In this document: positions 28,993 to 51,477 of the stretch, piece after piece
Layout of the letters: each line of letters opens with the position of its first letter
Position numbering within the stretch: the stretch's first letter is position 1
DNA from: Salinibacterium sp. ZJ70
GTDB taxonomy: Bacteria; Actinomycetota; Actinomycetes; Actinomycetales; Microbacteriaceae
NCBI RefSeq assembly: GCF_011751865.2
Contig: NZ_CP061770.1
Location: 248,001 to 312,000 of the forward strand
Reading direction: 5' to 3'
Length of the DNA: 64,000 nt
Position numbers and translations under genes: made by a program
The notes under the pieces: model-generated
Told to the model about the DNA's origin: nothing
Seen by the model: only the letters and a program-made list of their open reading frames with translations
The model's database searches: none

Positions 28993-29946
28993 GTGTTCGA
29001 ATACGTGCCGACCGCCCCCGACGGACCAGGTTTCGCGATCGTCACCGATCGCTTCCTCGGCCTCATCGGATCGGACGCACGCGCCTCAGTGGTGAGCGAG
29101 CTCTACGAGCTTCTCGAGCAGCCCGGCACCCGCATGGGCGATGTGCTGGACATCTTCCACGCACCGGCATCGGCGAGCCGGTTCGCACTCGTCGAGGTCG
29201 TCGACCCCGTGGCCCGGATCTTCCAGGTCGCGGTGCGCGGTGACGTCCTCGTGGATATGCGCGGTGCGACGGTCGATTCGTTCTCCGGTCCGCGCGGTGC
29301 GAACTGGATCACGGGGGAGGCGCGGGGGATCGCCTCGCTCAAGCTGTCGCTCAGCGCAGGCTCGTCGAGTGCGGCTCGCCTGCCGCTGCGCCGAGGCGTC
29401 GTGCACGCCTCCGAGGTGGGTGTGCGCCTCGCGTCCGCCGATCAGCCCTCGATCGAGCGGGCGAGCGAACCGCACCTCGAGACGGTGCGGGTCGATATGG
29501 CCGAGGTCCGCCGTCAGCTGGACGAACGGGAGGCGGAGCCTGCTCCTGCACGTGTCTCGCTGGATCGTGCACCCGTGCAGGTGGATCTGGCGCGTCTCGT
29601 GCGTCCGACCGGATGGATGCTGCATCTTCCGGACGGCAACACGCTCGACGCCGCCGAGCAGATCGTCGTGGGGCGGCGTCCGTGGCGCTCCGCACCGGAT
29701 GAGACATCGACCTGCTATGTGGTGGCGCATTCGCCGCGGCGCGAGATCTCGAGCAAGCATCTCGAGATCCGGCTGGTGGGGGAGGCCCTCGAAGCGCGCG
29801 ACCTCGATTCGGCGAACGGGACCGTCGTCCGAACCCCGGATCAGCCTCCACGCCTCCTGCACGGGGGGCGTGCGACACAGCTGAGAACAGGGGATACTCT
29901 CGATCTGGGTGAAGGTTTTCTCATCACCGTGGGGGTTCGAGGCTGA
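28993..29946 (+). CDS. FHA-domain protein
   Basis: 317 residues, GTG start. The first 150 residues are an unrecognised globular part (FEYVPTAPDGPGFAIVTDRFL...). The C-terminal 110 form an FHA phospho-Thr-binding domain: IVVGRRP, REISSKHLEIRLVG, RDLDSANGTVV, and GDTLDLGEGFLITVG. It is cytoplasmic, with no TM. Its place right before the kinase gene suggests it binds a phospho-Thr made by that kinase. A second FHA protein lies at 42056. Confidence 0.88.
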   Translation: MFEYVPTAPDGPGFAIVTDRFLGLIGSDARASVVSELYELLEQPGTRMGDVLDIFHAPASASRFALVEVVDPVARIFQVAVRGDVLVDMRGATVDSFSGPRGANWITGEARGIASLKLSLSAGSSSAARLPLRRGVVHASEVGVRLASADQPSIERASEPHLETVRVDMAEVRRQLDEREAEPAPARVSLDRAPVQVDLARLVRPTGWMLHLPDGNTLDAAEQIVVGRRPWRSAPDETSTCYVVAHSPRREISSKHLEIRLVGEALEARDLDSANGTVVRTPDQPPRLLHGGRATQLRTGDTLDLGEGFLITVGVRG

Positions 29947-30012: not shown

Positions 30013-31146
30013 GTGGCTCGACGCACGACCGCACTCCCTCCGGTGCTGCCCGGCTACAGCTACATCCGCCCGCTCGGTTCGGGTGGCTTCGCGGATGTCT
30101 TCCTCTTCGAGCAGGACATGCCGCGTCGTGTGGTCGCGGTGAAGGTGCTCGTCGATGACGCCGTCAACCCGGATGTGCTGCGTGTGTTCAACGCGGAGGC
30201 CGACATCCTCGCGAGGCTGAGCGCGCACCCGGCGATCGTGACGATCTTCCAGGCCAGCATCTCGGCGGATGGCCGCCCCTACTTCGTGATGGAGTACTGC
30301 CCCGATTCGATGAGCACGCGCTACAAGAAGGGGCCGCTTCCGGTCGCCGATGTGCTCGATGCGGGCGTGCGTATCGCGTCGGCGCTGGAGACAGCGCACC
30401 GCAACGGCGTGCTGCACCGCGACATCAAACCCTCGAATGTGCTGCTCACGAGCCTCGGTGCCCCCGTGCTCGCCGATTTCGGCATCGCGTCGGCTGTCGC
30501 GCGCTCCGATGACGCCCCCGAGGTGTTCGCGATGTCGGTGCCGTGGTCGTCGCCCGAGGTGCTGCAGGAACATGTGGCGGGCTCGATCCCGAGCGAGGTC
30601 TGGAGCCTCGGCGCCACGCTCCACACCCTGCTCACGGGACGCTCGCCGTTCGAGCAGGAGGGTGTCAAGCACACCCGCGATCAGCTGAAGTCGCGCATCA
30701 TCAAGGCCTCGTACGTGCCGACCGGCCGGCCCGACACGGGGGTGCGCCTGGAGGCGGCGCTCGCCCGCACGATGCAACGGGATCCGGAGCGTCGTTTCGC
30801 CTCGATGCTCGAGCTCGCCGAGGAGCTGCGCTGGGCGCAGTACGACCTGGGTCTTCCGCCGACGGCCCTCGACGTGCCGACGACCGAGTGGGCGGCCGCT
30901 GCGGTACCCGTCGACTTCGCGCAGGAGGCGCCTCGTGGCCCGGTGATCTCGACGGTGCGCCAGGACTCGCGTCGCTCGGCGCGCGCCGAGACGCTCGCCT
31001 CCGCGCAACGGCGCCGGGCGGAGGCCGAGACGGCGGCGAAGAAGCCGGTGTCGCCGGTGCGCGCTGCCGTGATGGGCGGCGTCGTGGGCGCGGTCGTCGT
31101 CGGTCTCGTCGTCGCGGGCGTTCTCGTGGGCACCGGGGTGCTCTGA
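30013..31146 (+). CDS. Transmembrane Ser/Thr protein kinase with almost no extracellular domain
   Basis: 377 residues, GTG start. Kinase motifs: G-loop LGSGGFADV, VAVKVL (Lys), VLHRDIKPSNVLL (catalytic loop), ADFGIA, and SPEVL in place of APE. A juxtamembrane stretch of about 70 residues (from 275) is Arg/Ala/Thr-rich. One TM helix (AAVMGGVVGAVVVGLVVAGVLVG) ends only about five residues before the stop. PknB-type kinases usually carry a large extracellular sensor here. The next gene starts two bases later and encodes a huge extracellular protein with a membrane helix at its N-terminus. Likely substrates are the Thr-repeat protein at 44138 and the FHA proteins. Confidence 0.93.
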   Translation: MARRTTALPPVLPGYSYIRPLGSGGFADVFLFEQDMPRRVVAVKVLVDDAVNPDVLRVFNAEADILARLSAHPAIVTIFQASISADGRPYFVMEYCPDSMSTRYKKGPLPVADVLDAGVRIASALETAHRNGVLHRDIKPSNVLLTSLGAPVLADFGIASAVARSDDAPEVFAMSVPWSSPEVLQEHVAGSIPSEVWSLGATLHTLLTGRSPFEQEGVKHTRDQLKSRIIKASYVPTGRPDTGVRLEAALARTMQRDPERRFASMLELAEELRWAQYDLGLPPTALDVPTTEWAAAAVPVDFAQEAPRGPVISTVRQDSRRSARAETLASAQRRRAEAETAAKKPVSPVRAAVMGGVVGAVVVGLVVAGVLVGTGVL

Positions 31147-31147: not shown

Positions 31148-34100
31148 TTGGTCCGCGAACGGCGTGCTCCGCGGGTGCCCCGCGGGATCATCCTGAAGAC
31201 GGTCGCGACCGTCGCGGTGCTCGGCGTCGTCGGCACCGCCGCGGTGGTGGCGCAGGGCTTCGATGCGCAGCAGGTTCCGCAGCTCGAGACGAGCGTGTGG
31301 GTGACGCGCGACGCCGGCCAGTACGGGCGCGTGAACACGGAGCTCGCCGAGATCGACACGGTGCGGGCAGTCGGTGATCCGAGCGCGATCCTGCAGAGCG
31401 GATCCCGCGGCTACGTCTTCAGTCAGGGCTTCTCGCAGATGTGGGCGATCGATGCCGCGTCTCCCGGCGATCTGGTGAGCGCGGATGACGCGGTCGCCGC
31501 CGCGGGTGCGCCCGCCGCGGTCGCGACCCCGGCGCTCACGCGGCAGGTGGTCGCTGCGGGCGACTTCGTGCTCTTCTCCACCGAGACAGGCGAGACCTAC
31601 CTCACCAGGTTCCCGGGTGCGGACGGCTCGATCACGGAGCCGGCGCCGGTGGATCCGTTCCTCGGCATGGAGGTGGCGGAGGGCGAGACGCGGCCGCGGT
31701 ATGTGGCTGACGCCGCCGCGGTGGATGCGAGCGGGCGCGTGGCGCTCTTCTCCGCGGCTGAGGGCGGCGTGCGCGTCTACGACGCGATCAGCGGACGATT
31801 CGCGGGTGAGCCCGCTGCCATCGACGACGCGCCCCAGGGCGGCCCTGACGTCTCGCTCACGTTCGCGGGCGGGCGCTGGGTGCTGTCGGACTCCGGCGCG
31901 GGCCTGCTGTGGATCGAGGGGCGCGGCGAGCCTGTGTCCACGGGCGTCGAGGATGCCGTGATCCAGGCCGCGTCGACGGACGACGGCGTCGTTCTCCTCG
32001 CGGATCGGTCGGGGCTCGTGGGCGTCGACGTCGCCGACGGCTCGGTGCGCGAGCTCGCGACGGCATCCGGAACTCCCGCCGCGCCGGTGCGAGTGGGTGG
32101 GGTGTCGTACGCCGCATGGATCTCGGACACCGGCGCGGCGCTCTGGTCGAGCGACACCGGCGAGATCCGAGACCTCGAGGTCGAGGCCGAGCGTCTCGCG
32201 GAAGCCGACAGCGACCTGACCCCCGTGTTCCGCAGCAACGGCCACCGTGCGGCGCTCAACGAGACGGCGACAGGGCTTGTGTGGACGCTTCCCGACGGGC
32301 GCCTCGTCTCGGGCGACGACTGGGCTCCGCTCGAGGAGACGGTGCAGGACGAGGGCACGGTCGAGGTGGACGACGTCATCGACCAGCAGCCGCCGGTCTC
32401 GGTCGATGATGCGTTCGGTGTGCGTGCGGGAGCTCTCGTGTCGCTTCCGCTGCTGCTCAACGATCACGATCCCAATAAGGACGACGTCCTCACGATCGAC
32501 GCGGCGTCGATCCAGGGTCTCGACCCGGCGTTCGGATCCGTCTCACTCGTCGCCGACGACCAGATCGCGCTCGTGCAGGTGGGTGCCGCATCGGGGTCGA
32601 CCACCTTCTCGTACGCCGCGACCGATGGGGTTCTCTCCTCTGCGCCCGCGACCGTGACCCTCACGGTCGTGCCCGAGGGGCAGAACTCGGCTCCGGCCTG
32701 GTGCGGCGTCGAGGGATGCCTGCACCCGTGGCCGGTTCCGCAGATGGCCCCCGGAGGGTTCGCCGCGGTCTCGGTGCTGCCCGGCTGGGTCGACCCGGAA
32801 GGCGACATCGTGCTGCTCGCGGATGCGCGCGCCGACGACCCGAGTGCGCCGGTCACCGTCGTGCCGACGTCCGACGGCCGCGTCGTCGTGCGCCACACCG
32901 ACCCCAACGCGAGCGACGCCGTCATCCTGATCACGGTCACGGTGAGCGACGCGTTCGGCGAGCAGGCGACGATGCCGCTCGAGGTGCGTGTCACCCCCTC
33001 TCCGTCTCTCACCGTGGAGCCCGTCGTGGTGTCGGCCGGCGCGGGCGAGGAGCGTCGTGTGACGATCGCCGACTCGGTGACGGGCGGGTCCGGCTCCTAC
33101 CGCCTGATCGATGCGGTGGTGCTGCGCGGCTCGACGGATGCGTTCTCGGTCACCCCGCAGGGGGCGAGCGGCGAGGTGGAGCTCTCGGCGTCGCAGCCCG
33201 GCGAGTACGCCGCGAGCTACACCGTGCAGGACACGCAGACGCTGTCGCAGCAGACGGCGATCATCCGCTTCAGCGTTCAGGCCTCCGAGCGCCCGCTCGC
33301 CGCTCCTCCCCTCACCGCCTTCGTGCGCGCGGGCGAAGATGCGACGATCGACGTGCTCGCCTCGGTGCAGAACACCACGGGACGCGTGCTGCTCGTGCAG
33401 GATGCGTCGGCGACCGATCCGCAGCTGAGCGTGAGCGTCATCGGTCAGAGCGTCGTGCGGGTCGCGAACCTCGACATGCAGGCGACGCCCGGACGGCTCG
33501 GCACGGCGCGCGTGCTCATCGCCGACGGCGCGGGCAACGCCGTCACGACGACCCTCACCGTCTTCCTCCTCGCACCCACTCACGGCGTCGGACCGATCGC
33601 ACTTCCGGATGCGATCACGGTGCGCGCGGGCGCGCAGATCGACATCCCGGTTCTCGCGAACGATGTGAGCCCACGCGGCGAGCGCCTGCTGCTGCACCCT
33701 GTCGTCGAGGGGTCGGGCGCCGAGGATGAGCTCGCCTTCGCGAGCGCTTCGCGTGTGCGCTACCTCGCGCCTGAGACACCGGGCACCTACACCGTGCGGT
33801 ACTCGATCTACCTCGAGAACGATCCCGCCCGCGTCGACTCCGCCACGATCGCCGTGAGCGTGCTTCCCGCGGGCGCCAACCGCGCGCCGCAGCCGGGCGT
33901 GCTCTCGGCTCGGGTGCTCGCCGGACAGAGCGTCTCGATCCCTGTTCCCACGGGCGGCAATGACCCAGACGGCGACCCGACGGTGCTCGCGGATGTCGAG
34001 CAGCCGAAGGCGGGTGAGGGCAGCGTCTCGATCAGCGCGACGGGCGACACCCTCGTGTACCGCGCCCCGGCGAACGGGGTGCGCGGCGGCCAGCTGAGCT

Positions 34101-37100
34101 TCGCCTACACGGTGCGTGACTCCGTGGGCGCCGAGGGCACCGGAACCGTGCGGGTGGGCGTTCTCGCGGCGGATGTGGGCGACGTCGCCCCCATCGCCTA
34201 CAGCGACTACGTGGGTGTGCAGCGCGGCTCCGAGACCGACATCACGGTGAGGCCGCTGCTCAACGACCGCGACCCGCTGCAGGGAACGCTGAGGCTCGTC
34301 GACATCCGCCCCAACGCCTTCTCGCCCTCGGCCGAGTGGGACCGCCTGGAGGCGCTGCTCGATCGCAGTCTTCCGCTCGACGACGGCCGCGTCGCCCTGC
34401 GCGCGGGGGATGTGAGCGGCATCAACTCCTACGTCTACACCGTCGAGTCGTCGAGTTCGAGGAGCACGGCTGAGGGCCTCATCGTGCTGGGTGTGAGCGA
34501 CGAGCCGTCGCCGGACAGCCCGCACGTCGCCGACACGATCGTCACCGTGCAGACCCGTGCCGATCTCGAGCGCGGCATCGACGTCGTCGCCGGCAAGGTG
34601 CAGTGGCCGACGGGTGACGTCGACGCGCTCACCCTCTCGCTGTGGCGCGATGTGCCCGGATTCTCGGTCGATGGGCACCGCATCTCGGGATCCGTCGGGC
34701 GCGAGGCGCGCATCGTGCCCTTCGAGCTGACGGGAGAGGATGCGCGCGGCGACGCGGTCTCCGCGTTCGGATTCCTGCGGGTTCCCGCGTTCGATGACAT
34801 GCGCGTGCAGCTGTCGACCGGAGCCGACCCTGTCGTCGTGGATGAGGAGAAGTCGGCGACCTTCGAGGTGGCCGACTTCGTGGACGTCGCGCCCGGTGAC
34901 GACATCGAGCTGCGCTCGAGCGGCGACTTCTCCGTGCAGCGGAACGCCTCGACGTGCGCGCCCGCGAACGGAGATCGCGCGACCTACACGGCCGGCCGCG
35001 AAGCACCGTGGAGCGACACCTGCAGCGTCGTGGTGCGCGTCGCCGGACAGTCGTCGTGGAGCGTCGTGCCGGTGCCGATCGTCATCGTGCCCAAGGATCC
35101 CCAGGCGATCCTGAGCCCGGTGAGTCGCACCGTGCCGCCGGGGGAGTCGGTCGAGATCGACCCGCTCGCCGATCTCACCTCGTGGGAAGGCGGTCGCGTC
35201 GGGAACACCGTCGACCTGGATTTCTCGATTCAGGCGAGCGCACCGTCGTTCGACGTGGCCTTCGCGGGCGGCACGATCGTCGCCTCCGCTCGCGCTGATG
35301 CGCGCCCCGGCACGCGCGAATCGGTGCGGGTGAATGTCTCGAGCTTCGGCGGGCTGACGACGACGGTCTCGCTCGTCGTGGGCATCGCGGCACCCGATGC
35401 GCCGAAGGGCGCCACGTTCACGAAGCAGTGCGACGTGAGCGCAGGGCCCTGCTCGATCGCTGCTGTGGGCATCCCCGGCGAGTACGACCCGTTCGCCGGC
35501 AAGTCCGGATCTGGCCTGAAGCTCGTGAACGTCGGCGCCGACGGAAGCGTGAACTGCCCCATCGCGTCCGTCTCCCGATCCGACGCGAGCCGCATGGTCG
35601 CCACCTGGCCATCCGGCGGCAAGCCCGTCGGCGGCGAGTGCGTCGTGCCGTTCACGGTGTCCGACGCGCAGGAGCGCACCGGACAGGGACAGCTGACCCT
35701 CGACATCCTGGGCTACCCGCAGACCCCCGCGAGCGTCGTGACCGAAGGGTACGGCCCCAGCTCGGTCACCCTCCGGGTGTCGCTCGGCGAGGCCGTGCAC
35801 GCGCATCCGTCGGTCTCCGGAGTCGCCATCTACGAGAACGGCTCGCGCGTTGCCGCCGAGTGCACGCCCGCGACGGGCTCCTACCTGTGCGTCGTCTCGG
35901 GCCTCGTGAACGGCGCCGAGCACGTCTACACCGCCCGCGCCGTCAACGGTGTGGGGGAGTCGGCCGACACGAGCGGACACCGCACATGGGCCTACGACGC
36001 CCCCGTCGTCTCGAGCGTGACCGCTGAGGCCGTCTTCAAGCGCGGCAGCACGACGCGCGAGGTCGGCTGGGTCGAGGCGCGGATCGTCGCCGCTGCCGAC
36101 GCCGACCGCTTCGAGATCCGCGACAGCGCGAGCCCGGACACCCTCCTCGCCACCGTCGCGCGCTCGGCGGAGACGACGACAGCTGGCTTCCTCGCCCCGG
36201 TCGGCGCGGGGCGCACGATCGTCGTGACCCCCATCAGCCGCTACAGCCCGCCGATCGGCACCGGCAACAGCGGTCTCGAGGCGTCGACGATGCTCGCGGT
36301 CGCGGGCCTGCCTCGGTACTCCGGATCCGTCACCGGTGTCACGAGCGGATCCGGAGACACCCGGGTCGTGACGATCACGTCGCCGCCGCTCGATGTGAAC
36401 CACAGCACGGTGCCCGTCGTCGAGAAGTGGGCCGCATGGCGCACCAACGCGGGGACCCCCACCTGCAGCCTCGACGGGGACGGCAACCCGAGGTGGCAGG
36501 GGGCGGGCGTTCTCACATCCGACACTCCGGTCGTCGCCGGACTCCAGAAGAACAAGCCGTACCACGTAGGGGTGTGCGGAACAGCCGGCTTCGGTGAGGC
36601 GGGGCTCACGAGCGGGGGCTCCTCGCCGATCGTCCCGTTCGACCCGCCCAGCGCGCCGGCGGGCCCGATCACCGTCTCCGTCTCCACGAGCCCGATCAGT
36701 TCGTCGGGCCCCGTGCGTGAGTTCGTGTACCGCTGGAGCGCCGTCAGCGTCCCGGCATCGCCCGACGGACACGTCGCCTGGATGCGCGTGGGTTCGGGAG
36801 CCTGGACGCAGGGTCCGCTCTCCGACGCAGGACCCGGGACTCCCGCCAGCGGCGAGGCGATGTACTGCCTTGAGGGCGAGAACCCCAATGCGCTGGCCAG
36901 CTACTGCGGGGCGAGGACGCCGATCGACGTCTCGACGTCTGGCCCGCCCAACGCCGTGCGTGTGACGTTCCCGACCTGGTGCGTCGCGTCGGCCCAGCCG
37001 AGCGATGTGGAGGTGGTGGGCGCGTCCGGTTCGCAGGTGCTCGTCACGATCTCCGGCGACGGCACGCAGTACCTCGTGAACTGGGGAGCACCGTTCGACA

Positions 37101-37189
37101 CGCTCCCCGAGCTCACCTGGTCCGTCGACCTCTGCCCGGTCCCCGACCCCGATCCCGATCCCGATCCCGATCCGGAAGATGGCCCCTGA
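31148..37189 (+). CDS. Giant membrane-tethered Ig-like surface protein
   Basis: 2013 residues. A short basic N-terminus and one hydrophobic helix (GIILKTVATVAVLGVVGTAAVVAQ) act as signal-anchor, so nearly all of the chain is outside. Residues 60-400 look like a beta-propeller-like region. Tandem Ig/cadherin-like modules follow with the xVRAGxxxxxPxLxND(x)DP signature near 418, 815, 910 and 1015. Fibronectin-like modules lie near 1520-1990. The C-terminus is (DP)n-rich, encoded by GATCCC repeats at 37151-37174, with no LPxTG motif or C-terminal TM. The start is TTG 31148; GTG 31175 is an alternative. It lies directly after the kinase gene and before moxR, so it may be a sensor partner or adhesin. 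Confidence 0.85.
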   Translation: MVRERRAPRVPRGIILKTVATVAVLGVVGTAAVVAQGFDAQQVPQLETSVWVTRDAGQYGRVNTELAEIDTVRAVGDPSAILQSGSRGYVFSQGFSQMWAIDAASPGDLVSADDAVAAAGAPAAVATPALTRQVVAAGDFVLFSTETGETYLTRFPGADGSITEPAPVDPFLGMEVAEGETRPRYVADAAAVDASGRVALFSAAEGGVRVYDAISGRFAGEPAAIDDAPQGGPDVSLTFAGGRWVLSDSGAGLLWIEGRGEPVSTGVEDAVIQAASTDDGVVLLADRSGLVGVDVADGSVRELATASGTPAAPVRVGGVSYAAWISDTGAALWSSDTGEIRDLEVEAERLAEADSDLTPVFRSNGHRAALNETATGLVWTLPDGRLVSGDDWAPLEETVQDEGTVEVDDVIDQQPPVSVDDAFGVRAGALVSLPLLLNDHDPNKDDVLTIDAASIQGLDPAFGSVSLVADDQIALVQVGAASGSTTFSYAATDGVLSSAPATVTLTVVPEGQNSAPAWCGVEGCLHPWPVPQMAPGGFAAVSVLPGWVDPEGDIVLLADARADDPSAPVTVVPTSDGRVVVRHTDPNASDAVILITVTVSDAFGEQATMPLEVRVTPSPSLTVEPVVVSAGAGEERRVTIADSVTGGSGSYRLIDAVVLRGSTDAFSVTPQGASGEVELSASQPGEYAASYTVQDTQTLSQQTAIIRFSVQASERPLAAPPLTAFVRAGEDATIDVLASVQNTTGRVLLVQDASATDPQLSVSVIGQSVVRVANLDMQATPGRLGTARVLIADGAGNAVTTTLTVFLLAPTHGVGPIALPDAITVRAGAQIDIPVLANDVSPRGERLLLHPVVEGSGAEDELAFASASRVRYLAPETPGTYTVRYSIYLENDPARVDSATIAVSVLPAGANRAPQPGVLSARVLAGQSVSIPVPTGGNDPDGDPTVLADVEQPKAGEGSVSISATGDTLVYRAPANGVRGGQLSFAYTVRDSVGAEGTGTVRVGVLAADVGDVAPIAYSDYVGVQRGSETDITVRPLLNDRDPLQGTLRLVDIRPNAFSPSAEWDRLEALLDRSLPLDDGRVALRAGDVSGINSYVYTVESSSSRSTAEGLIVLGVSDEPSPDSPHVADTIVTVQTRADLERGIDVVAGKVQWPTGDVDALTLSLWRDVPGFSVDGHRISGSVGREARIVPFELTGEDARGDAVSAFGFLRVPAFDDMRVQLSTGADPVVVDEEKSATFEVADFVDVAPGDDIELRSSGDFSVQRNASTCAPANGDRATYTAGREAPWSDTCSVVVRVAGQSSWSVVPVPIVIVPKDPQAILSPVSRTVPPGESVEIDPLADLTSWEGGRVGNTVDLDFSIQASAPSFDVAFAGGTIVASARADARPGTRESVRVNVSSFGGLTTTVSLVVGIAAPDAPKGATFTKQCDVSAGPCSIAAVGIPGEYDPFAGKSGSGLKLVNVGADGSVNCPIASVSRSDASRMVATWPSGGKPVGGECVVPFTVSDAQERTGQGQLTLDILGYPQTPASVVTEGYGPSSVTLRVSLGEAVHAHPSVSGVAIYENGSRVAAECTPATGSYLCVVSGLVNGAEHVYTARAVNGVGESADTSGHRTWAYDAPVVSSVTAEAVFKRGSTTREVGWVEARIVAAADADRFEIRDSASPDTLLATVARSAETTTAGFLAPVGAGRTIVVTPISRYSPPIGTGNSGLEASTMLAVAGLPRYSGSVTGVTSGSGDTRVVTITSPPLDVNHSTVPVVEKWAAWRTNAGTPTCSLDGDGNPRWQGAGVLTSDTPVVAGLQKNKPYHVGVCGTAGFGEAGLTSGGSSPIVPFDPPSAPAGPITVSVSTSPISSSGPVREFVYRWSAVSVPASPDGHVAWMRVGSGAWTQGPLSDAGPGTPASGEAMYCLEGENPNALASYCGARTPIDVSTSGPPNAVRVTFPTWCVASAQPSDVEVVGASGSQVLVTISGDGTQYLVNWGAPFDTLPELTWSVDLCPVPDPDPDPDPDPEDGP

Positions 37190-37241
37190 TGCCCGCGCCG
37201 CTCGACTTCTCCTCGATCACCCACGGAATGGAACTCCCCGC

Positions 37242-38207
37242 ATGACCATCACGCCGGAACAGGCCACCTGGTACGCCGATACCTTCAGCCTCCTCGCCGA
37301 GAACATCGAGCAGTCGATCCTCGGCAAGCGCCACGTCGTCGAGCTCGTGCTCGCGACGGCACTGTCGGGCGGGCATGTGCTGCTCGAGGACGTGCCGGGC
37401 ACAGGCAAGACGGCGCTCGCCCGCACCCTCGCCCAGACGGCGCAGGGAACGTCGTCGCGCATCCAGTTCACCCCCGACCTGCTGCCGGGTGATGTGACGG
37501 GCATCTCGGTCTTCAACCAGAAGAAGGGCGAGTTCGAGTTCCACGCGGGCCCCATCTTCGCCAACATCGTCCTCGCGGACGAGATCAACCGAGCGAGCCC
37601 GAAGACGCAGTCGGCGCTCCTCGAGGTGATGGAGGAGGGCCAGGTCACGATCGACGGCGTCACTCGCGACGTCGGACGCCCGTTCCTCGTCATCGCCACC
37701 CAGAACCCCGTCGAGCAGGCGGGCACCTACCGCCTTCCCGAGGCGCAGCTCGACCGCTTCATGATCAAGACCTCGATCGGCTACCCGGATGACGGCGCCA
37801 CCTTGCGCATCCTCCAGGGTGTCGCCTCCCCGCCGCAGAAGGTGCAGGCGATCGTGAGCCCCGAGACGATCATCACGATGCAGGAGCTCGCGCGCACCGT
37901 GTACGTCAACCCGCTCGTGTCGGACTACATCCTGCGACTCGTCAACGCCACCCGCAACGCCACCGAGGTGCGCCTCGGTGTCTCCGTGCGCGGGGCGATC
38001 TCCCTCGCGAAGCTCGTGTGCACCTGGGCAGCCTCGCGCGGGCGCACCTACGTGACCCCGGACGACGTGCGCGACCTCGCGGTGCCCGCGCTCGCCCACC
38101 GCCTGATCCTCGAGCCCGAGGCGGAGTTCGACGGCGTGACAGCGGTCGAGATCGTCGGACAGGTGCTTCTGGATGTCGCGCCGCCCGCGGAGAACGGCGC
38201 AGCCTGA
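37242..38207 (+). CDS. MoxR-family AAA+ ATPase
   Basis: 321 residues, ATG 37242. Walker A VPGTGKTALA, Walker B VLADEINRASPKTQSALLE, sensor 1 in VIATQNPVEQAGTYRLPEAQLDRF, and arginine-finger region SVRGAISLAKLV. MoxR proteins act as chaperones that insert metals or mature partner proteins, often with VWA or DUF58 proteins. Here the partner is the next gene. It lies 52 bases after the Ig-like gene. Confidence 0.95.
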   Translation: MTITPEQATWYADTFSLLAENIEQSILGKRHVVELVLATALSGGHVLLEDVPGTGKTALARTLAQTAQGTSSRIQFTPDLLPGDVTGISVFNQKKGEFEFHAGPIFANIVLADEINRASPKTQSALLEVMEEGQVTIDGVTRDVGRPFLVIATQNPVEQAGTYRLPEAQLDRFMIKTSIGYPDDGATLRILQGVASPPQKVQAIVSPETIITMQELARTVYVNPLVSDYILRLVNATRNATEVRLGVSVRGAISLAKLVCTWAASRGRTYVTPDDVRDLAVPALAHRLILEPEAEFDGVTAVEIVGQVLLDVAPPAENGAA

Positions 38208-38211
38208 TCCG

Positions 38212-39579
38212 ATGAAGAACGACACCGAGGCCCGACTCGGTCGCACGGCGACCGTCACGGGCACCCGCACGCGCGGAGCGACCGTCACGCGGTACTCCGA
38301 CACGCGCACGGGGTTCGTCGCGGGCGGGCAGGCTGCCAGGCGGCGCCTCGTCGCGCGCGTCGGGCGCACGGTGTCGACGGCCGCTCGCTGGCTCGCCGAG
38401 ACGGTGAGCGCGGCGGGCTGGCTGCTCGCCGCGGTGCTCGTGCTCGGGCTCGTCGCCGGGATCGGCTGGGGCTGGGCGGAAGGCTGGGTCGCCGCCGTCA
38501 TCGCCTTCGTGCTGCTGCTGGTGTGCGTGCCGTTCCTGCTGGGGCGCCACGACTACGCGATCCGGCTCGAGCTCGAACGGGATCGCGTCGTCGCGGGCTC
38601 GGTGGTGAGCGGCGTTCTCGACGTCGCGAACCGGGGCGAGCGCGTCGGGTTCCCGGCGCTCATCGACATCCCCGTCGGGGACGGCCTCGTCGAGGCGCAT
38701 GTGCCCCTGCTGCGCTCCGGCGCCGACTATCGCGAGCGCCTCACCATCTCGGCGGCGCGCCGCGGCATCATCACGGTCGGACCGATGACGATCGGACGCG
38801 GCGACCCGCTCGGGATCCTGCGCCGGGAGCACGTGTGGGACGACGTGCAGACGATCTACGTCCACCCGGTGACGGTGCCCATCCCCTCCACCTCCGCAGG
38901 ACTCCTCCGCGACCTCGAGGGGTCGCCCACCTCGACGATCGTCGACTCCGACCTCGCCTTCCACGCCATCCGCGACTACGCCGCCGGCGACTCCCGACGC
39001 CACGTGCACTGGAAGTCGACGGCGAAGACCGGCAAGCTCATGGTCCGCCAGTACGAGGAGACGAGGCGCTCGCGCATCGCAGTGCTGCTCGACCTGGAGA
39101 CGGCGCGCTACGGATCCGAGGAGGAGTTCGAGCTGGCTGTGAGCGTCGCATCCTCGCTCGGCGTGCAGGCGGTGCGCGACGGGCGCGACGTGCTCGTCAC
39201 CGCGAGCGCCATCATCCCCGAGTACGCGCGTGGACGCGTGCACTCGATCCGCACGCTGCCCACGGTCAATCCGAAGACGTTCCTCGACGGCATGGCCGGC
39301 ATCGCGTCGAGTGACGACGTCATGGGGCTCGAGGAGGTCGCGCGGCTCACTGTGCAGGCGGAGTCCTCGCTCTCGCTCGTCTTCATCGTCACGGGATCCG
39401 AGCAGCAGCTCGCGCGCCTCAGGCAGGCGGCTCTCGCGTTCCCCGCGGATGTCACCGTCGTCGCCCTGCGCTGCGAACCCGGTGCCGAACCGCTCGTGCG
39501 CCAGGCCCGCGAGCTGCGCGTGCTCGACATCGGGGTGCTGCACGACGTCTCCCACCTGATGGCTCGAGGGGTCGTGTGA
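38212..39579 (+). CDS. DUF58 membrane protein
   Basis: 455 residues. Two TM helices (about 70-90 and 93-113) follow a Thr/Arg-rich cytoplasmic N-terminus (RTATVTGTRTRGATVTRYSD), which could be a kinase target. The core has the DUF58 motif DYAAGDSRRHVHWKSTAKTGKLMVRQYEE and a VWA-like fold after it. DUF58 proteins pair with MoxR ATPases and transglutaminase-fold proteins, as here. It overlaps the next gene as TGATG at 39577-39581. Confidence 0.92.
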   Translation: MKNDTEARLGRTATVTGTRTRGATVTRYSDTRTGFVAGGQAARRRLVARVGRTVSTAARWLAETVSAAGWLLAAVLVLGLVAGIGWGWAEGWVAAVIAFVLLLVCVPFLLGRHDYAIRLELERDRVVAGSVVSGVLDVANRGERVGFPALIDIPVGDGLVEAHVPLLRSGADYRERLTISAARRGIITVGPMTIGRGDPLGILRREHVWDDVQTIYVHPVTVPIPSTSAGLLRDLEGSPTSTIVDSDLAFHAIRDYAAGDSRRHVHWKSTAKTGKLMVRQYEETRRSRIAVLLDLETARYGSEEEFELAVSVASSLGVQAVRDGRDVLVTASAIIPEYARGRVHSIRTLPTVNPKTFLDGMAGIASSDDVMGLEEVARLTVQAESSLSLVFIVTGSEQQLARLRQAALAFPADVTVVALRCEPGAEPLVRQARELRVLDIGVLHDVSHLMARGVV

Positions 39580-42059
39580 TGCGCCGGCTGCGTTCGCTCC
39601 CCGACGGCTCCGGGCAGCTTTGGTGGGGCCTTGGCGCCATCGTGGTGTCGGTCGCGCTCGCCGCGTGGGCGGCATGGCCGGTGTATGACACCTCCCGCGT
39701 CGCGCTCGTCGCGGGAGCGGGGCTGCTGATCGGCGCGGGCTCCGTCGTGCTGGGAGCCGCTCTCGGCTGGCGCTGGTGGACGATGTCGCTCGCTGCGGCG
39801 GGAGCGTACCTCGTGCTCGTCGTCCCCGTCGCCGTGCCGGGCGCCCTGACCGACCCCAGCCGTGCGATCCGGGGCCTCATCGACGGACTCGCGGGCATCG
39901 TCCTCGGCTGGAAGCAGCTCCTCACCCTCACGCTGCCTGTGGGCGAGTACCAGGCGGTGCTCGTGCCGTTCCTCGTGACGATCGCGGTCGGCACCCTCGT
40001 CGCGACGGCGCTCGTGATCGCGGGAGGCCGTGCGGCGCCGTTCGCCGTCGTGCCGATGCTCGGAATGACCTTCTTCGGCGCGATCTTCGGCGCCTCGGAG
40101 ACCGGGCCGGCGGTCGAGGTCGGACTGCTGCGGATCCCGGCTCCCGGCTATGTGCTTCTGGGTGTGCTCGCGCTCACCGTCGCCATCGCCTGGCTTCTCG
40201 GCCGCACCCGACTGACCCGTGCGCGGGCTGTCTGGGCCGCGCGCGAACGCACCTCCACCGTGCGCCAGCAGGCGGAGTCGCGCGGCGCGACCGCGCGCCG
40301 CTACGCGCTCTCGGCTGGCCTGCTCGTCGTGGCGCTCGGTGCCGGTCTCGCGGCCGCGCCTGTCGCGACAGTCTTCGGCTCACGCGAGGTGCTGCGGGAC
40401 GACGTCGACCCGTGGCTCGTCATCCAGCAGCACCCGAGCCCACTCGCGGCGTACCGCGCGTCGTTCGCCGGGGAGGCGTTCGAGCGCGAGCTGTTCACGG
40501 TCGACGCGCCCGCGGAGGTGGACCGTGTGCGCATCGCGACGCTCGACGCCTTCGACGGCCAGACGTTCCGGGTCGGCACGGGCGACGAGAACCGCTTCAC
40601 GCGTGTTCCGCGTGCGGCGAGCTCGGAGGCTCCCGTGCAGATCACGATCGGCGAGGGCTATTCGGGCGTCTGGGTGCCGATCATCTCCGCCGACGCGCCC
40701 GCGCCCGCGTTCACCGGATCGCGGGCGGATGTGCTGGCGGACGCGTTCTACAGCAGCCCGGTTCTCGACTCCGCTGTCGTCGTGCCCGACCGCACGGGAG
40801 TCGGCCTCCAGTCAGGAGACAGCTTCCGCCTCGAGGCGGGCGCCCGCCCCGACGGGGGAGCCTTCGCGACCGCGTCCGGCGGCGACGCGCGGCTCGACAC
40901 GTCCCGGTACCCGGTGCTCGACGCATGGATCGAGCTGCAGGATCTGCCGCGCACCGGTGCGAGCGTCGTGGAGCTCGTGGAGCGTCTGCGCTCGCGGGGC
41001 TACCTGAGTCATGCGAGCCGCGATGATGCAGCGGGTGCCGACTGGATCGGCGCGCTCACCTCGCGCGCCGACTACACATTCATCCCCGTGCGCTCGGGCC
41101 ATTCCACGACCCGCATCGAGGAGCTCTTCACGAGCCTGCTCGATCAGGAGCGCCGCGCGGGCGAGGGTGCGGGGCCGGAGATGCTCGTGGCCGCCGTGGG
41201 TGACGACGAGCAGTTCGCTGCGGCCGCCGCGCTCATCGCGCGCCACCAGGGCTTCGATTCGCGTGTCGTCGTGGGCGTGCGGCTGGGCTCGACCGGCGCG
41301 GATCTGGCGGTCGAGCCGTGCGAGAGCGTCTGCACGGGCGCGCACCTCACCGCCTGGGCGGAAGCGCGTGCCGGAGACGGTGCCTGGACAGTGCTCGACG
41401 CGACCCCCCAGTTCGAGACCGCACCCACCCTCATCCATGAGGGTGAGGAGCTTCCGGAGCATCCGACGCTCACCGAGCAGCCCGCGAGCGAGGTGCTCGA
41501 GCCCCCTTCAGCGCAGAATGACGACGCCGCAGGGTCGCGCTCGGACGAGGCCGACGACCAGCCCTGGACCGACGCCCTCCTCCCGATCATCCTCACGGTC
41601 CTGCTGTCGGCCGCTACAGTGGGGCTCCTGCTCCTGCCGTTCCTCGTGTTCCCGATCGCGAAGTCGGTGCGTCGCCGCGGTCGTCGCCGCGCGCCGGATC
41701 CCGAGGTCGCGATGGTCGGCGCCTGGGACGAGCTCATCGACACCTACGTCGACCACGGCATCGAGGTGCCGCGTGGCCTCACGCGCACCGAGATCGCCGA
41801 CGCGCTCGACAGCCCGGGTGCGCTCCTGCTCGCCGACATCGTCGATCGCGCCGTATTCTCGGAGCATCCGCCTGCCCACGAATCGCGCGTGGACAGCTGG
41901 CGCCTGCTCGACGACGAGCGGCGCGAGATCGTGCGGGCCACCCGCTTCCGCACCCGCGTCCGGGCCGTCCTGACGCCCGCCTCACTCATCCAGCACATCC
42001 GCGCGGGGGAGCTCCTGTCCCGCACAGCCGGCCGAATCCGCCGAAAGGGAACGTCATGA
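39579..42059 (+). CDS. TgpA-like membrane protein with a degenerate transglutaminase domain
   Basis: 826 residues. Six or seven N-terminal TM helices (to about residue 270), an extracellular transglutaminase-fold region (about 480-620), one TM near 670, and a cytoplasmic tail of about 130 residues. In the core, GDDEQFAAAAALIARHQGF puts Asp543 where the catalytic Cys (GDCxxFA) is expected. LTAWAEARAGDGAWTVLDATP has Thr591 in place of the His of HAWVE. Only the Asp of the triad is kept (LDATP). It is therefore probably not an active transglutaminase or protease, but a binding or structural member of the MoxR/DUF58 group. GTG 39576 is an alternative start. Confidence 0.88.
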   Translation: MRRLRSLPDGSGQLWWGLGAIVVSVALAAWAAWPVYDTSRVALVAGAGLLIGAGSVVLGAALGWRWWTMSLAAAGAYLVLVVPVAVPGALTDPSRAIRGLIDGLAGIVLGWKQLLTLTLPVGEYQAVLVPFLVTIAVGTLVATALVIAGGRAAPFAVVPMLGMTFFGAIFGASETGPAVEVGLLRIPAPGYVLLGVLALTVAIAWLLGRTRLTRARAVWAARERTSTVRQQAESRGATARRYALSAGLLVVALGAGLAAAPVATVFGSREVLRDDVDPWLVIQQHPSPLAAYRASFAGEAFERELFTVDAPAEVDRVRIATLDAFDGQTFRVGTGDENRFTRVPRAASSEAPVQITIGEGYSGVWVPIISADAPAPAFTGSRADVLADAFYSSPVLDSAVVVPDRTGVGLQSGDSFRLEAGARPDGGAFATASGGDARLDTSRYPVLDAWIELQDLPRTGASVVELVERLRSRGYLSHASRDDAAGADWIGALTSRADYTFIPVRSGHSTTRIEELFTSLLDQERRAGEGAGPEMLVAAVGDDEQFAAAAALIARHQGFDSRVVVGVRLGSTGADLAVEPCESVCTGAHLTAWAEARAGDGAWTVLDATPQFETAPTLIHEGEELPEHPTLTEQPASEVLEPPSAQNDDAAGSRSDEADDQPWTDALLPIILTVLLSAATVGLLLLPFLVFPIAKSVRRRGRRRAPDPEVAMVGAWDELIDTYVDHGIEVPRGLTRTEIADALDSPGALLLADIVDRAVFSEHPPAHESRVDSWRLLDDERREIVRATRFRTRVRAVLTPASLIQHIRAGELLSRTAGRIRRKGTS

Positions 42060-43330
42060 CCTCAGACCTCTCCGGTCTCCTCGCACTCACGGGAATCGTG
42101 TGGGCGATCTTCCTCATCGGGGGCATCGGCTTCTACGTCTGGTACGGCATCGCCCTGTCGAAGCTCTTCCCGAAGCTCGGCGCCGAAGGCTGGAAGGGCT
42201 GGGTGCCGATCCTCAACGAGTACGAGATCCTCGTGCGCGGAGGCCTCCCCGGATGGCAGATCGTGTTCGCGTTCCTGCCGGTCGTGAGCCTGTACTACCT
42301 CTACCTGAAGTTCCAGGCGGCGACGCGGATCGGCCAGCTCCTCGGGCGTCCGAGCACCGGGCTCGCGGTCGTCGCGCCGCTCGTCGCGCCCCTCTGGGCG
42401 ACGCTCGTGCAGACGGGCTCATCGGCGCCCGCCGCGCCGCTCGGCGACCGCGTCGCAGCCTCGATGACGGCGCCCGGTGCGCCCGGTGCGGCCGGCGGCC
42501 TCGCAGCTCCAGCGATCATCACGGCCCCGGGGTCTTTCCCGACGCCTGCGCAGCCCGCCCCGCCGGCGCAGCTCGGAGCGACCGGAGTCCCGCCCGTCCC
42601 GCCCGCGCCGCCTGCACTCCCCGCTTCGGTGGCAACCCCGCCCGCTCCGCCCGCGCCTGCGGCCGCCCCGCCTGCCCCCGCCCCGCCTGCCCCCGCCCCG
42701 CTGGCGGCTCCGGCAGCTCCTCCCGCTCTCGCGGCGGCCCCCATCGCACCCCCGCCGGCGCCTCCCGCGCTCGTCACACCGCCAGAGCCCGCCTCGGCGA
42801 GCGAGATCCCGCCCGTCGTCGTTCACAACCCGTGGGCCCCGAAGGCGAACGACAAGCCCGCTCCGGTCGTCGCGCCTCCGGCGCCTCCGGCCACGCCTCC
42901 CGCCCCCGCGCCCGTCGCGGAGGAGCCCGAGATCGACGACGATGACGAGATGGGTGCGACGATCGTCGTCGATCGTCGGCCCCGCGTGCGCTGGCGCCTC
43001 GAGCTCGACGGCGGTGCCGTGTTCGCACTCGACCGCACCACCGCCGTGCTCGGTCGCAAGCCCGTGAGCTCCGACCCCGAGGTGCAGGATGTCGCCGTGC
43101 CCGACACGACGCGCACGCTCTCGAAGCTGCACGCACGCCTCGAGCGCCGCGACGAGCAGTGGGTGATCACCGACCTCAACTCCACCAACGGCGTCGTCGT
43201 CGTGGACGCCGCGGGCGAAGAGCATCTGCTCGACCCCGGTGCGAGCGCGACGATCACCGGCCGTTTCATCCTCGGCAAGGTCGGCATGCGGCTGGCCTAC
43301 AACGACGGAACGGGCGAATGGCGATCCTGA
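42056..43330 (+). CDS. Membrane protein with Pro/Ala linker and C-terminal FHA domain
   Basis: 424 residues. Residues 1-105 hold two to three TM helices in a DUF5684-like layout (KLFPKLGAEGWKGWVPILNEYEIL). Residues 130-295 are an almost pure Pro/Ala linker. An acidic stretch leads into GATIVVDRRP with Thr302, similar to the repeat of the protein at 44138 and a candidate phospho-site. The FHA domain spans about 310-420 (AVLGRKPVS, RTLSKLHARLER, VITDLNSTNGVVV). Intramolecular binding of pThr302 by the FHA domain, as in GarA/OdhI, is possible. The start overlaps the previous stop (ATGA), and the end overlaps the PP2C start by 13 bases. Confidence 0.85.
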   Translation: MTSDLSGLLALTGIVWAIFLIGGIGFYVWYGIALSKLFPKLGAEGWKGWVPILNEYEILVRGGLPGWQIVFAFLPVVSLYYLYLKFQAATRIGQLLGRPSTGLAVVAPLVAPLWATLVQTGSSAPAAPLGDRVAASMTAPGAPGAAGGLAAPAIITAPGSFPTPAQPAPPAQLGATGVPPVPPAPPALPASVATPPAPPAPAAAPPAPAPPAPAPLAAPAAPPALAAAPIAPPPAPPALVTPPEPASASEIPPVVVHNPWAPKANDKPAPVVAPPAPPATPPAPAPVAEEPEIDDDDEMGATIVVDRRPRVRWRLELDGGAVFALDRTTAVLGRKPVSSDPEVQDVAVPDTTRTLSKLHARLERRDEQWVITDLNSTNGVVVVDAAGEEHLLDPGASATITGRFILGKVGMRLAYNDGTGEWRS

Positions 43331-44130
43331 CTCTGCGCGGCATCCGGCTCAACGTCGCCGCCCTCACCGATGTCGGCCTCAAGCGCGCCGCCAACGAGGA
43401 TTCCTATCTCGCCGAAGGCCCGTCGTTCCTCGTCGCCGACGGCATGGGCGGATACGAGTCCGGCGATCGCGCGAGCGCTGCCGTGGTCTCGGCCTTCCGC
43501 GAGCGTTTCTCCGCATCCGACTGGGGAGATTTCACGGGCGTCAACGCCGCGCTCATCGACGCGGATGACCGCGTCGCCGTGGTCGCCGCGGGCACGACCC
43601 GCGGCGCCGGCAGCACCGCGTCGGGCGTCGTCATGGTCGATCACGGCGGCATCGCGTACTGGCTCGTGTTCAACGTGGGCGACTCGCGTGTCTACCGCCA
43701 CCACGGCAGCGAGCTCGAGCAGCTGACGATCGACCACTCGCTCGGTCAGGAGCTCGTCGATCGAGGTGAGCTCGCTGCCTCCGACCTCGCGACGTTCCCC
43801 AGCAAGAACATCATCACCCGTGCCATCGGCGCCGCCGACAGCCTCGCCGACAGCTGGCTCGTGCCCGTGGTCAACGGCGAGCGGCTGCTGATCTGCTCCG
43901 ACGGACTCCACGGTGAGGTCGACGACGAGAGCATCCGCGCCGCCCTCACCATGAACGGGCAGCCTGAGGCCGCGGCGCAGGTGCTCGTCGACCGTGCGAA
44001 GGCGAACGGCGGCCGCGACAACATCACGGTCGTGATCGTCGACGTCGTCGCGGGCGGCTCCGACATCCCGAGCGACTTCACGACCGGGGTGCGGCTCGCG
44101 CCCGAGGTCGAGGACACCCTTCCGGTGTGA
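43318..44130 (+). CDS. PP2C-family protein Ser/Thr phosphatase
   Basis: 270 residues, cytoplasmic, no TM. All metal-binding motifs are visible: ANEDSYL, VADGMGGYESGD, FNVGDSRVYR, ICSDGLHGEVDD, GGRDNITVVIVD. It should reverse the action of the kinase at 30013. Unlike most PstP proteins it lacks a C-terminal TM. It overlaps the end of the FHA gene and lies eight bases before the Thr-repeat gene, so all three are likely co-translated. Confidence 0.95.
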   Translation: MAILTLRGIRLNVAALTDVGLKRAANEDSYLAEGPSFLVADGMGGYESGDRASAAVVSAFRERFSASDWGDFTGVNAALIDADDRVAVVAAGTTRGAGSTASGVVMVDHGGIAYWLVFNVGDSRVYRHHGSELEQLTIDHSLGQELVDRGELAASDLATFPSKNIITRAIGAADSLADSWLVPVVNGERLLICSDGLHGEVDDESIRAALTMNGQPEAAAQVLVDRAKANGGRDNITVVIVDVVAGGSDIPSDFTTGVRLAPEVEDTLPV

Positions 44131-44137: not shown

Positions 44138-44881
44138 ATGACGACCGAGCAGCTCGACGACCATCAGGACGACCTGGAGCGCACGCGCGTGACCTCGCGT
44201 CGGCGACTCGCGCAGGAGTCCCTCGTCGACGACGCGGAGCGCACGGTGATCGTCGACCGCGGCGCCGTGCCGGAGGAGGCCGTGGTCGTCCACCGGACGC
44301 CCCGGAGCGAGGTCCCCGTCGAGGAGGAGACGGTCGTCGTCTCGCGGTCTGTGTCGACGGAGGACACGGTCGTCGTGGAGAGATCCGCTCCCACCGAGGA
44401 CACCGTGGTGGTCGAGCGCTCGGCCCCCACTGGGGACACCGTGGTGGTCGAGCGCTCGGGGCCGGCGGAGGACACGGTCGTCGCCGAGCGCTCGGAGCCC
44501 ACCGAGGACACCGTCGTGGTGCGCGGTGGCACGGAACCGCCCCGCACTCCGAGCCCTGCGCCCTCTGCCCCGGTGCTGCGAACGCGTGGGGACCGCCGCC
44601 GCGGCATCGCACCGCCTCCCGTACCCGCGGGGTTCGCGCCAGCGGCGAAACCCGCCGTCGGCCCGGGAGCAGTCGAGGCCTACACCGCGCGAGCCATGCC
44701 GACGGTGCGGATCTCTCCCGCGCCCGCGGGCGGCGCAGAACCCACGCGGGATCCGGCGCGCGATCTGCCCTCGGCGGCGCGGCGCTCTCAGCGGGTCGCG
44801 CGCATCGCGGTCGCGTCGTTCGCCGCCGCGTGCGTCGTATCGGTCGTGGGGCTCATCGCCATCGCGATGCTCGTCTGGTGA
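44138..44881 (+). CDS. Membrane-anchored protein with tandem EDTVVVERSAPT repeats
   Basis: 247 residues, no family recognised. The N-terminal half is acidic and carries an early ERTVIVDR and then five 12-residue repeats plus a partial one (residues 63-128; unit E-D-T-V-V-V-E-R-S-A-P-T). Each has Thr followed by Val at +3, the pattern favoured by FHA domains, and acidic residues before it. A Pro/Ala linker and one C-terminal TM (RIAVASFAAACVVSVVGLIAIAMLVW) follow; topology puts the repeats in the cytoplasm. I infer a multi-site phospho-Thr docking scaffold for the locus's kinase, phosphatase and FHA proteins. It is the last gene before the pilus cluster. Confidence 0.8.
   Translation: MTTEQLDDHQDDLERTRVTSRRRLAQESLVDDAERTVIVDRGAVPEEAVVVHRTPRSEVPVEEETVVVSRSVSTEDTVVVERSAPTEDTVVVERSAPTGDTVVVERSGPAEDTVVAERSEPTEDTVVVRGGTEPPRTPSPAPSAPVLRTRGDRRRGIAPPPVPAGFAPAAKPAVGPGAVEAYTARAMPTVRISPAPAGGAEPTRDPARDLPSAARRSQRVARIAVASFAAACVVSVVGLIAIAMLVW
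44324..44521 (+). repeat. Coding tandem repeat, 36-bp unit, about 5.5 copies
   Basis: Five full 36-bp units start at 44324, 44360, 44396, 44432 and 44468, with a partial unit from 44504. DNA identity is high between units 3 and 4 and lower elsewhere, while the protein pattern TVVVxR is kept, which points to selection on the peptide. Confidence 0.9.
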
Positions 44882-46701: not shown

Positions 46702-46735
46702 TCGCGGCTGCCGCACTGAAGGGAGAGTGCTGAAC

Positions 46736-48238: not shown

Positions 48239-49479
48239 TGGCGGCGCAGGTGAGCTCGTCGATCCGACAGTTCGACTACAAGGCGCGAAACAGCTCCGGA
48301 AAAGTCGTCAAGGGGCGCCTCGAGGGCGCGACGGAGGCGGTGGTCGTCGACAAGCTTCGGGGCATGAGTCTCGCCCCTGTCGAGGTCAAGGAGTTCGTGG
48401 GCGGCACGGGCCTGAACCGCGAGATCTCCCTCGGAAGCTTCGGCAAGGGCGTCGAGCTCAAGTCGCTCGCGATCTCGAGCCGGCAGCTCGCGACCATGAT
48501 CTCCGCGGGCATCTCGCTGCTGAAGGCGCTCAGTGTGCTCGCCGAGCAGACGGAGGACAAGAAGCTCGCCCCGATCCTTGTGCAGGTCGCGCGCGACGTC
48601 GAGACCGGTGGGGCGCTCTCGGATGCGCTCGCGAAGCACCCGATCGATTTCCCGCCGCTCATGATCTCGATGGTGCGGGCGGGTGAGACGGGCGGATTCC
48701 TCGAAGACGCGCTCGACACCATCGCGACGAACTTCGAGAAGGAGGCGAAGCTCCGCGCTGCCATCAAGTCGGCCATGACGTACCCCGTCATGGTGCTCTC
48801 GATGGCGGTTGTCGCTGTCGCGGCGATGCTGATCTTCATCGTCCCGGTGTTCAGCGACATGTACGCCAACGCCGGGCAGGAGCTTCCGGCGATGACCCAG
48901 GTTCTCGTCGTCGCGAGCGAGAACATGGTCTGGCTCGTGCCGACGGTCGTCGTGGTGTGCGTCGTCGTCTCGGTCTGGTGGCGCCTCAACAGGAACACCC
49001 GCGCGGTGCGCGAGCGCGTCGACCCCATCAAGTTCCGCCTGCCGGTGTTCGGGCCGCTCAACAAGAAGATCGCGGTGACGCGTTTCACCCGCAACCTCGC
49101 GAACATGCTGGGTGCCGGTGTCCCGCTCATGACGGCGCTGCTCGTCGTGGGCGAGACGGCGGGCAACTGGGTGATCGAGCAAGCGGCGCAGAACGTCTCG
49201 GATGCGGTGCGCCAGGGGCGTTCCGTGGCGGGCCCGCTCGCCGAGCAGGGGGTCTTCCCGCCTATGGTGACCCAGATGGTCGCCGTGGGTGAGGATTCCG
49301 GATCGATGGAGACGATGCTGCGCAAGGTGGCGGACTTCTACGACACGGAGGTCGAGGCCACCACGAAGTCACTCACCTCGATCATCGAGCCGCTTCTCAT
49401 CGCCTTCCTCGGCATTGTGGTCGGCGGCATGATCATCGCCCTCTACATGCCGATCTTCGGCATGACGCAGGCGGTCTGA
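48238..49479 (+). CDS. pilC: Type IV pilus platform protein PilC (GspF family)
   Basis: 413 residues. Two GspF domains: the first after FDYKARNSSGKVVKG with FSRQLATMISAGISLLKAL-type sequence, the second after RFTRNLANMLGAGVPLMTALLVVGE. Three TM helices lie near residues 180-205, 225-245 and 385-405. It is the inner-membrane platform that couples PilB/PilT to pilin. The gene overlaps pilT and ends before a 149-bp gap ahead of pilA. Confidence 0.94.
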   Translation: MAAQVSSSIRQFDYKARNSSGKVVKGRLEGATEAVVVDKLRGMSLAPVEVKEFVGGTGLNREISLGSFGKGVELKSLAISSRQLATMISAGISLLKALSVLAEQTEDKKLAPILVQVARDVETGGALSDALAKHPIDFPPLMISMVRAGETGGFLEDALDTIATNFEKEAKLRAAIKSAMTYPVMVLSMAVVAVAAMLIFIVPVFSDMYANAGQELPAMTQVLVVASENMVWLVPTVVVVCVVVSVWWRLNRNTRAVRERVDPIKFRLPVFGPLNKKIAVTRFTRNLANMLGAGVPLMTALLVVGETAGNWVIEQAAQNVSDAVRQGRSVAGPLAEQGVFPPMVTQMVAVGEDSGSMETMLRKVADFYDTEVEATTKSLTSIIEPLLIAFLGIVVGGMIIALYMPIFGMTQAV

Positions 49480-50078: not shown

Positions 50079-50119
50079 TCACACGACCCCGATCAGACTC
50101 AGCACGCTGACTGACAGCG

Positions 50120-50150
50120 GTGGGGCGCGGTTCTTCGAGCCGCGCCCCAC
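50120..50150 (+). terminator. Stem-loop between pilA and the minor pilin genes
   Basis: GTGGGGCGCGG (50120-50130) pairs perfectly with 50140-50150 around a 9-base loop. No T-run follows. It may end or slow most transcripts after pilA, so that the pilin is made in excess over the minor pilins. Confidence 0.6.
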
Positions 50151-51466: not shown

Positions 51467-51477
51467 GAGGTGGAACG

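Follow-up and report, generated by a model that had tools for sequence, protein, structure and literature searches.

A family of putative tail-anchored phosphothreonine docking proteins encoded beside a PP2C phosphatase gene in Microbacteriaceae and related bacteria

Docking of FHA domains on phosphorylated threonine residues has been described in several systems. The TQXF and acidic phospho-repeats of MDC1, a eukaryotic DNA-damage adaptor that depends on the kinase ATM, recruit the FHA domains of RNF8, Pellino, and NBS1 (PMC11884936). In actinobacteria, autophosphorylation sites in the N-terminus of PknG dock GarA/OdhI (PMC8546545), and multi-Thr docking with two sites has been reported for CwlM and FhaA (PMC6180346). 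In DgcB, the FHA domain recognises the tail of the same protein, whose Val at +3 points into the cleft (PMC6733907), and binding of pThr9 to FHA in TIFA occurs in trans (PMC10865109). Of the bacterial cases considered here, GarA/OdhI-PknG, CwlM-FhaA, and DgcB rely on one or a few sites, and a dedicated multivalent scaffold protein does not feature in any of them. In the PFNA cluster of bifidobacteria, a gene of unknown function (gene 7, BLGT_RS02790) follows the phosphatase gene prpC (PMC8430577).

In the present study, we analysed a stretch of 64,000 nucleotides from Salinibacterium sp. ZJ70 (the window; NZ_CP061770.1, positions 248,001 to 312,000). A gene cluster in it runs in the order FHA, kinase, Ig, MoxR, DUF58, transglutaminase, FHA, and PP2C, with the gene studied here in last place (Table 1). 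We refer to the product of this last gene as the scaffold protein, after the role proposed below. The presence of a kinase, a PP2C phosphatase, and two FHA proteins, which the original prediction had stated, was confirmed by Pfam. The cluster resembles PFNA: the two share a kinase, a large surface protein, an AAA ATPase, DUF58, transglutaminase, phosphatase, and FHA genes in similar order, and the succession kinase, AAA ATPase, DUF58, transglutaminase was found in the window. The window cluster differs in having two FHA genes, with FHA2 before PP2C, and in its large Ig protein, at the place between kinase and ATPase where PFNA has an FN3-domain surface protein; in it, Pfam detected Big_9 and cadherin-like domains and no FN3 domain. 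The scaffold gene and PFNA gene 7 are alike in their position after the phosphatase gene, a likeness of gene order. The role proposed here would be the first functional hypothesis for the gene after the phosphatase in PFNA-like clusters.

Table 1. Features of the gene cluster and of the scaffold gene in the window
Feature	Position	Strand	Remark
FHA1 protein	28993..29946	+	Pfam
Ser/Thr protein kinase, hydrophobic C-terminal end	30013..31146	+	
Large protein with bacterial Ig (Big_9) domains	31148..37189	+	Pfam
AAA ATPase, presumably MoxR-type	37179..38207	+	Weak AAA-family matches only, NCBIfam; start uncertain
DUF58 protein	38173..39579	+	Pfam
Transglutaminase-like membrane protein	39576..42059	+	Pfam
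FHA2: membrane protein, weak DUF5684 match, GATIVVDR (T302), C-terminal FHA domain	42056..43330	+	
PP2C-type Ser/Thr phosphatase	43318..44130	+	Start inferred
Scaffold gene	44138..44881	+	247 aa; disordered Thr-motif segment and C-terminal membrane helix
Motif Thr codons T16, T36, T65, T77, T89, T101, T113, T125	44183..44512	+	
36-nt tandem array, EDTVVVERSAPT-type units	44360..44520	+	TRF, 4.5 copies
C-terminal helix, residues 211-246	44768..44875	+	Sole predicted membrane segment; preceded by an Arg-rich stretch

The scaffold gene is an open frame throughout. Its product gave no family match in Pfam or NCBIfam and was therefore rejected as a member of any family in them; no Pfam family matched more than one of 28 homologues at E 0.1. 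The window protein contains eight acidic-x-Thr units, T16 lying in ERTRVTSR and T36 in ERTVIVDR, and one further slot (A48, EEAVVVHR, 44279) has Ala where Thr is expected. TRF reported an array with a 36-nt period and 78% matches, in which EDTVVVERSAPT occurs twice exactly and the remainder consists of GDTVVVERSGPA, EDTVVAERSEPT, and a partial EDTVVVRG. The five and a half copies counted in the original prediction are reached only if EETVVVSRSVST is included. An AlphaFold2 model based on 28 sequences showed disordered repeats (pLDDT about 39-48 over residues 1-130) and a single, confidently modelled helix (pLDDT at least 95 over residues 221-247). Near its C-terminus, each of the 47 orthologues surveyed carries a hydrophobic segment that is followed by no more than 13 residues and has more Arg/Lys on its N-terminal than on its C-terminal side; the L045 protein has a second hydrophobic segment barely above the cut-off. 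Since the Arg/Lys excess precedes the segment, the repeats probably face the cytosol according to the positive-inside rule.

By analogy, the scaffold protein may work like the MDC1 repeats or the PknG N-terminus while constituting a separate family. MDC1 likewise has multiple copies of one Thr motif with conserved Thr in a presumably disordered region, together with FHA readers, a likeness that is functional; the scaffold protein differs from it in being membrane-anchored and in having Val at +3 and Arg at +5. PknG is likewise actinobacterial and has a disordered segment in which several Thr dock an FHA protein; however, its sites are part of the kinase and show poor conservation, whereas the scaffold protein is a membrane protein in its own right whose motif is regular. 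Three features expected of a docking scaffold were found here, namely, a repeated Thr motif in a disordered region, Thr that is almost never replaced by Ser, and an FHA protein with phospho-Thr pocket residues encoded nearby. Among the open-licence papers searched, no title or abstract dealt with a scaffold of this kind, and none of the papers contained the motif strings. This seems to be a known binding principle in an undescribed protein family.

Loci were fetched from named genomes with the window PP2C as the query, and 80 of 370 were kept. Orthologue counts cover 48 of them, L014-L061 (50-71% identity); the other 32, L062-L093, have 34-44% identity. A scaffold orthologue directly follows PP2C in 46 of the 48 loci (44 found automatically; L043 and L058 picked by hand). 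In L054, the sequence stops 502 bases past the PP2C match and a truncated open frame with motifs is present, and in L059, an FHA gene takes the place after PP2C. The start codon of the scaffold gene overlaps the PP2C stop codon in 30 of 44 loci (gap of -4). Relatives with 8 kb of upstream sequence mostly show the order Ig protein, MoxR, DUF58, transglutaminase, FHA2, and PP2C. The repeat gene thus nearly always adjoins PP2C and FHA genes, a point on which the original prediction could be checked; the exceptions are L031, with a scaffold gene and no FHA2 beside PP2C, and G235 and G318, in which the scaffold gene (with weaker motifs in G318) directly follows FHA2 without a PP2C match. G332 has a motif-bearing FHA2 followed by neither scaffold nor PP2C.

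The scaffold loci belong to Microbacteriaceae (including Agromyces, Microbacterium, Schumannella, Arenivirga, Salinibacterium, and Mycetocola), Demequinaceae, and Micrococcales MAGs. Within the genus of the window, a PP2C of at least 60% identity is present in three of nine genomes, its own included, and the same three are the only ones of the genus with a scaffold match. Overall, five of 60 genomes gave a match, one of them weak and with stops. A profile of the scaffold C-terminus matched at least 19 of 150 genomes of the family and at least seven of 149 of the order, some weakly. A search of 5.8 billion proteins listed 33 scaffold matches, the window protein among them, and those with names are called 'hypothetical' or 'uncharacterized protein'. 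In seven loci from other families (L172-L178), BLAST found transglutaminase, PP2C, and kinase in all seven, FHA1 in six, and FHA2 in five, and a scaffold gene was seen in none of the seven; a Thr lies near the same place of FHA2 in six, in differing contexts. As kinase, PP2C, and FHA genes occur there without it, the scaffold gene looks like a later addition to an older set. BLAST against L184-L187, sought as a more distant cluster, found no cluster gene except one FHA match (L186).

Two further loci showed unusual arrangements. In L188 (G005, 3965-17037), the Ig, FHA2, and PP2C genes are split over several frames and the scaffold open frame is intact; the splits may reflect either sequencing errors or decay. 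In G318 (L182, 766-7364), two genes follow the scaffold-like gene. One appears to encode an RDD-type membrane protein; the other encodes a protein of 1495 aa that begins with an FHA-like segment and, we presume, resembles the FHA-FtsK secretion ATPases.

Motifs were counted in 47 proteins (46 loci and the window) with the last 100 residues excluded. While linkers and repeat number vary, the motif [DE]-x-T-[VI]-V-V-x-R is kept. Of the 201 Thr-centred instances, 97% have D/E at -2 and 85% have R at +5; residues +1 to +3 are mostly Val, which the search pattern itself favours. The window protein has six strict motifs, where shuffled sequences average 0.05 (maximum 1 in 500 shuffles), and the 47 orthologues have 143, where 0.6 are expected (maximum 4 in 500 shuffles). 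An alignment of 28 homologues shows no variation at T65, T89, V92, or R94. The L018 protein has no strict-pattern motif because it uses T-R-V-V-D-R. In the genome of the window, a DNA pattern for the motif matched twice in the scaffold gene and twice elsewhere, in open frames of 1007 and 436 codons, and a reversed control pattern matched twice; since copies with AGA or variant residues escape the pattern, this is a rough test of whether the motif is private to the gene.

The tandem array in the DNA would also suit a neutral spacer, made by replication slippage, between the N-terminal part and the membrane anchor. In the five copies of the array, however, the codons of Thr, +1, and +2 differ synonymously only (six of ten pairs each), and replacements also occur at -2, +3, +4, and +5. 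Many orthologues have spaced motifs with unrelated linkers, and FHA2 carries the same motif. We consider the neutral spacer barely credible; slippage as the sole cause is largely excluded by the conservation pattern, in which the motif is kept in spaced, non-tandem form.

Of the 128 residues that precede [VI]V[VM], 121 are Thr and one is Ser, so that the conservation of Thr in orthologues, on which the phosphorylation idea depended, was borne out. When the core is relaxed to three hydrophobic or small residues followed by x-R, Thr precedes it in 159 of 185 cases; Val accounts for 20 of the others, for the most part because the same motif is then read one residue late. These counts also bear on docking independent of phosphorylation, in which the acidic-Thr-Val-Val-Val-x-Arg segment would add a beta strand to FHA2, MoxR, or DUF58, with Thr in a structural role. 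Three beta-branched residues after Thr do favour an extended strand, and phospho-independent FHA contacts are known for GarA. A structural Thr, however, should not be so rarely swapped for Ser, Val, or Ile, nor would the position of the gene in a kinase-phosphatase-FHA cluster be expected, and we regard this docking mode as quite improbable.

The partner protein FHA2 was surveyed in 49 loci (the 48 and the window), which gave 48 proteins, as L031 has no FHA gene at that place. As the original prediction had noted, the window FHA2 contains GATIVVDR with Thr302. The motif, the same as in the scaffold protein, occurs once per FHA2 protein. In 47 of 48 proteins (the exception being L059), its Thr precedes the Gly-Arg of the FHA domain by 30-31 residues, and Arg is found at +5 in 45 of these 47. 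In the alignment of the 48 proteins, Thr and Arg of the motif reach at least 90% conservation, and the FHA residues G37, R38, S60, H63, and N82, the canonical phospho-Thr-binding residues, are invariant. A model of the region (128 residues) gave a confident FHA-type beta fold, with the motif (residues 4-11) in a lower-confidence tail and the first strand beginning at 17. The closest solved structures are the FHA domains of Rv0020c, MDC1, OdhI, and GarA, with DgcB lower down. The score against NF041660 (OdhI family) was 23.5 bits, below the curated cut-off of 200, and the ETTS motif is absent before the FHA domain of FHA2, where T-[VI]-V-V-x-R is found instead. Just before the main motif, eleven Microbacterium-type FHA2 proteins (L035, L036, L039-L042, L044, L047-L049, and L053) carry an additional one, D-x-T-[VI]-V-[TS]-P-R.

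DgcB, GarA/OdhI, and TIFA are described as having FHA domains that bind their own tails; FHA2 likewise has a Thr motif before its FHA domain and, like DgcB, Val at +3. It differs from them in that only 11 positions separate the modelled Thr from the first strand and in that the motif is repeated in a second protein. Because of this short distance, binding of FHA2 to its own Thr in cis was judged unlikely, and we infer that FHA2 would link in trans.

Evidence for recognition of both proteins by the same partner came from the +3 position. A search across the order with an FHA2 profile gave matches in 97 of 198 genomes; other FHA proteins probably account for many of these. FHA2 has Ala/Ser in place of Val at +3 in ten genomes, of which eight belong to a single genus of the family that contains Demequina (g38) and two are Microbacteriaceae (g106), and the scaffold proteins of these ten genomes mostly have units such as T-R-L-S-S-R, T-V-L-S-S-R, and T-L-L-A-T-R. 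We compared 60 genomes in which both genes were seen. Where +3 of FHA2 is aliphatic, the scaffold majority is aliphatic in 48 genomes and Ala/Ser or other in two (L016 and L051); where it is Ala/Ser, the scaffold majority is aliphatic in none and Ala/Ser or other in ten, five of which were read by eye. Two of the ten, L155 and L160, have mixed scaffolds with 40% of motifs aliphatic (Val-type). The Fisher p value of 9e-10 is inflated by shared ancestry, as the genomes are not phylogenetically independent; the switch is present in two families. This joint switching points to one recogniser, a kinase or an FHA domain, acting on both proteins.

If the recogniser were the kinase alone, the scaffold protein could be a substrate buffer, whose many equivalent Thr sites would compete for the kinase and PP2C; they would set the threshold at which FHA2 is phosphorylated and would not themselves recruit FHA proteins. 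A shared kinase would suffice to explain the common motif. In mycobacterial work, 88% of inhibitor-decreased phosphopeptides were on Thr (PMC5845002), so that Thr over Ser can also be the choice of PknA/PknB-type kinases. Such buffering would leave the conserved Val at +3 and Arg at +5 unexplained unless the kinase reads them, and the invariant, canonical pocket residues of FHA2 mean that a phospho-Thr reader is at hand. We consider a pure buffer unlikely.

Docking of FHA proteins is the reading that we prefer and consider rather likely on the sequence comparisons: the scaffold protein would be a tail-anchored multivalent phospho-Thr docking protein, with marks written by the kinase, erased by PP2C, and read by FHA proteins. 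The cluster kinase (30013) would phosphorylate the motif Thr in both the scaffold protein and FHA2, and the FHA domains of FHA2, and perhaps FHA1, would bind the phospho-Thr, the Val at +3 lying in the FHA cleft. A single scaffold could gather several FHA molecules at the membrane, the phospho-Thr of FHA2 could link FHA2 molecules in trans, and PP2C would erase the marks. In the least supported step, the assembly might control the adjacent MoxR, DUF58, transglutaminase, and Ig-protein surface machinery. The original prediction of a phosphorylated repeat that recruits several FHA partners is partly supported, gaining from the invariant FHA binding residues and the co-switching motif; several partners are plausible because the cluster has two FHA genes, and the co-variation analysis covered FHA2. 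Against docking, the motifs reported for mycobacterial PknA/PknB, Glu-X-X-pThr and pThr-X-Pro (PMC5845002), differ from the scaffold motif, and L031, G332, the A48 slot, and the mixed loci L155 and L160 also speak against it.

The family would provide a compact writer-eraser-reader-scaffold set within one cluster and a natural series of repeat numbers. A more tentative idea, to which we give rather less than even credence, is that the Thr array arose from an amplified FHA2 tail motif and that, after the kinase has marked both proteins, the scaffold protein and self-linking FHA2 form a reversible, PP2C-dissolved membrane cluster gating the PFNA-type surface machinery. Such a cluster would combine the logic of MDC1 with that of TIFA within one operon. 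If so, species would differ in cluster size or threshold according to their number of repeats.

Elsewhere in the same genome (G000:C1, 2080225-2096015), a second FHA-PP2C-FHA group is present with a 1902-aa FHA-containing open frame nearby, and the DNA pattern of the scaffold motif was not found at this group. In the window, the scaffold gene is followed on the same strand by a type IV pilus-type gene set (45034-54925) with two T2SSE ATPases, a T2SSF membrane protein, an N-methylated pilin-like protein, and PilM. Inside this set, a protein with a ricin-type beta-trefoil lectin domain (51439-53025) is possibly an adhesive minor pilus component.
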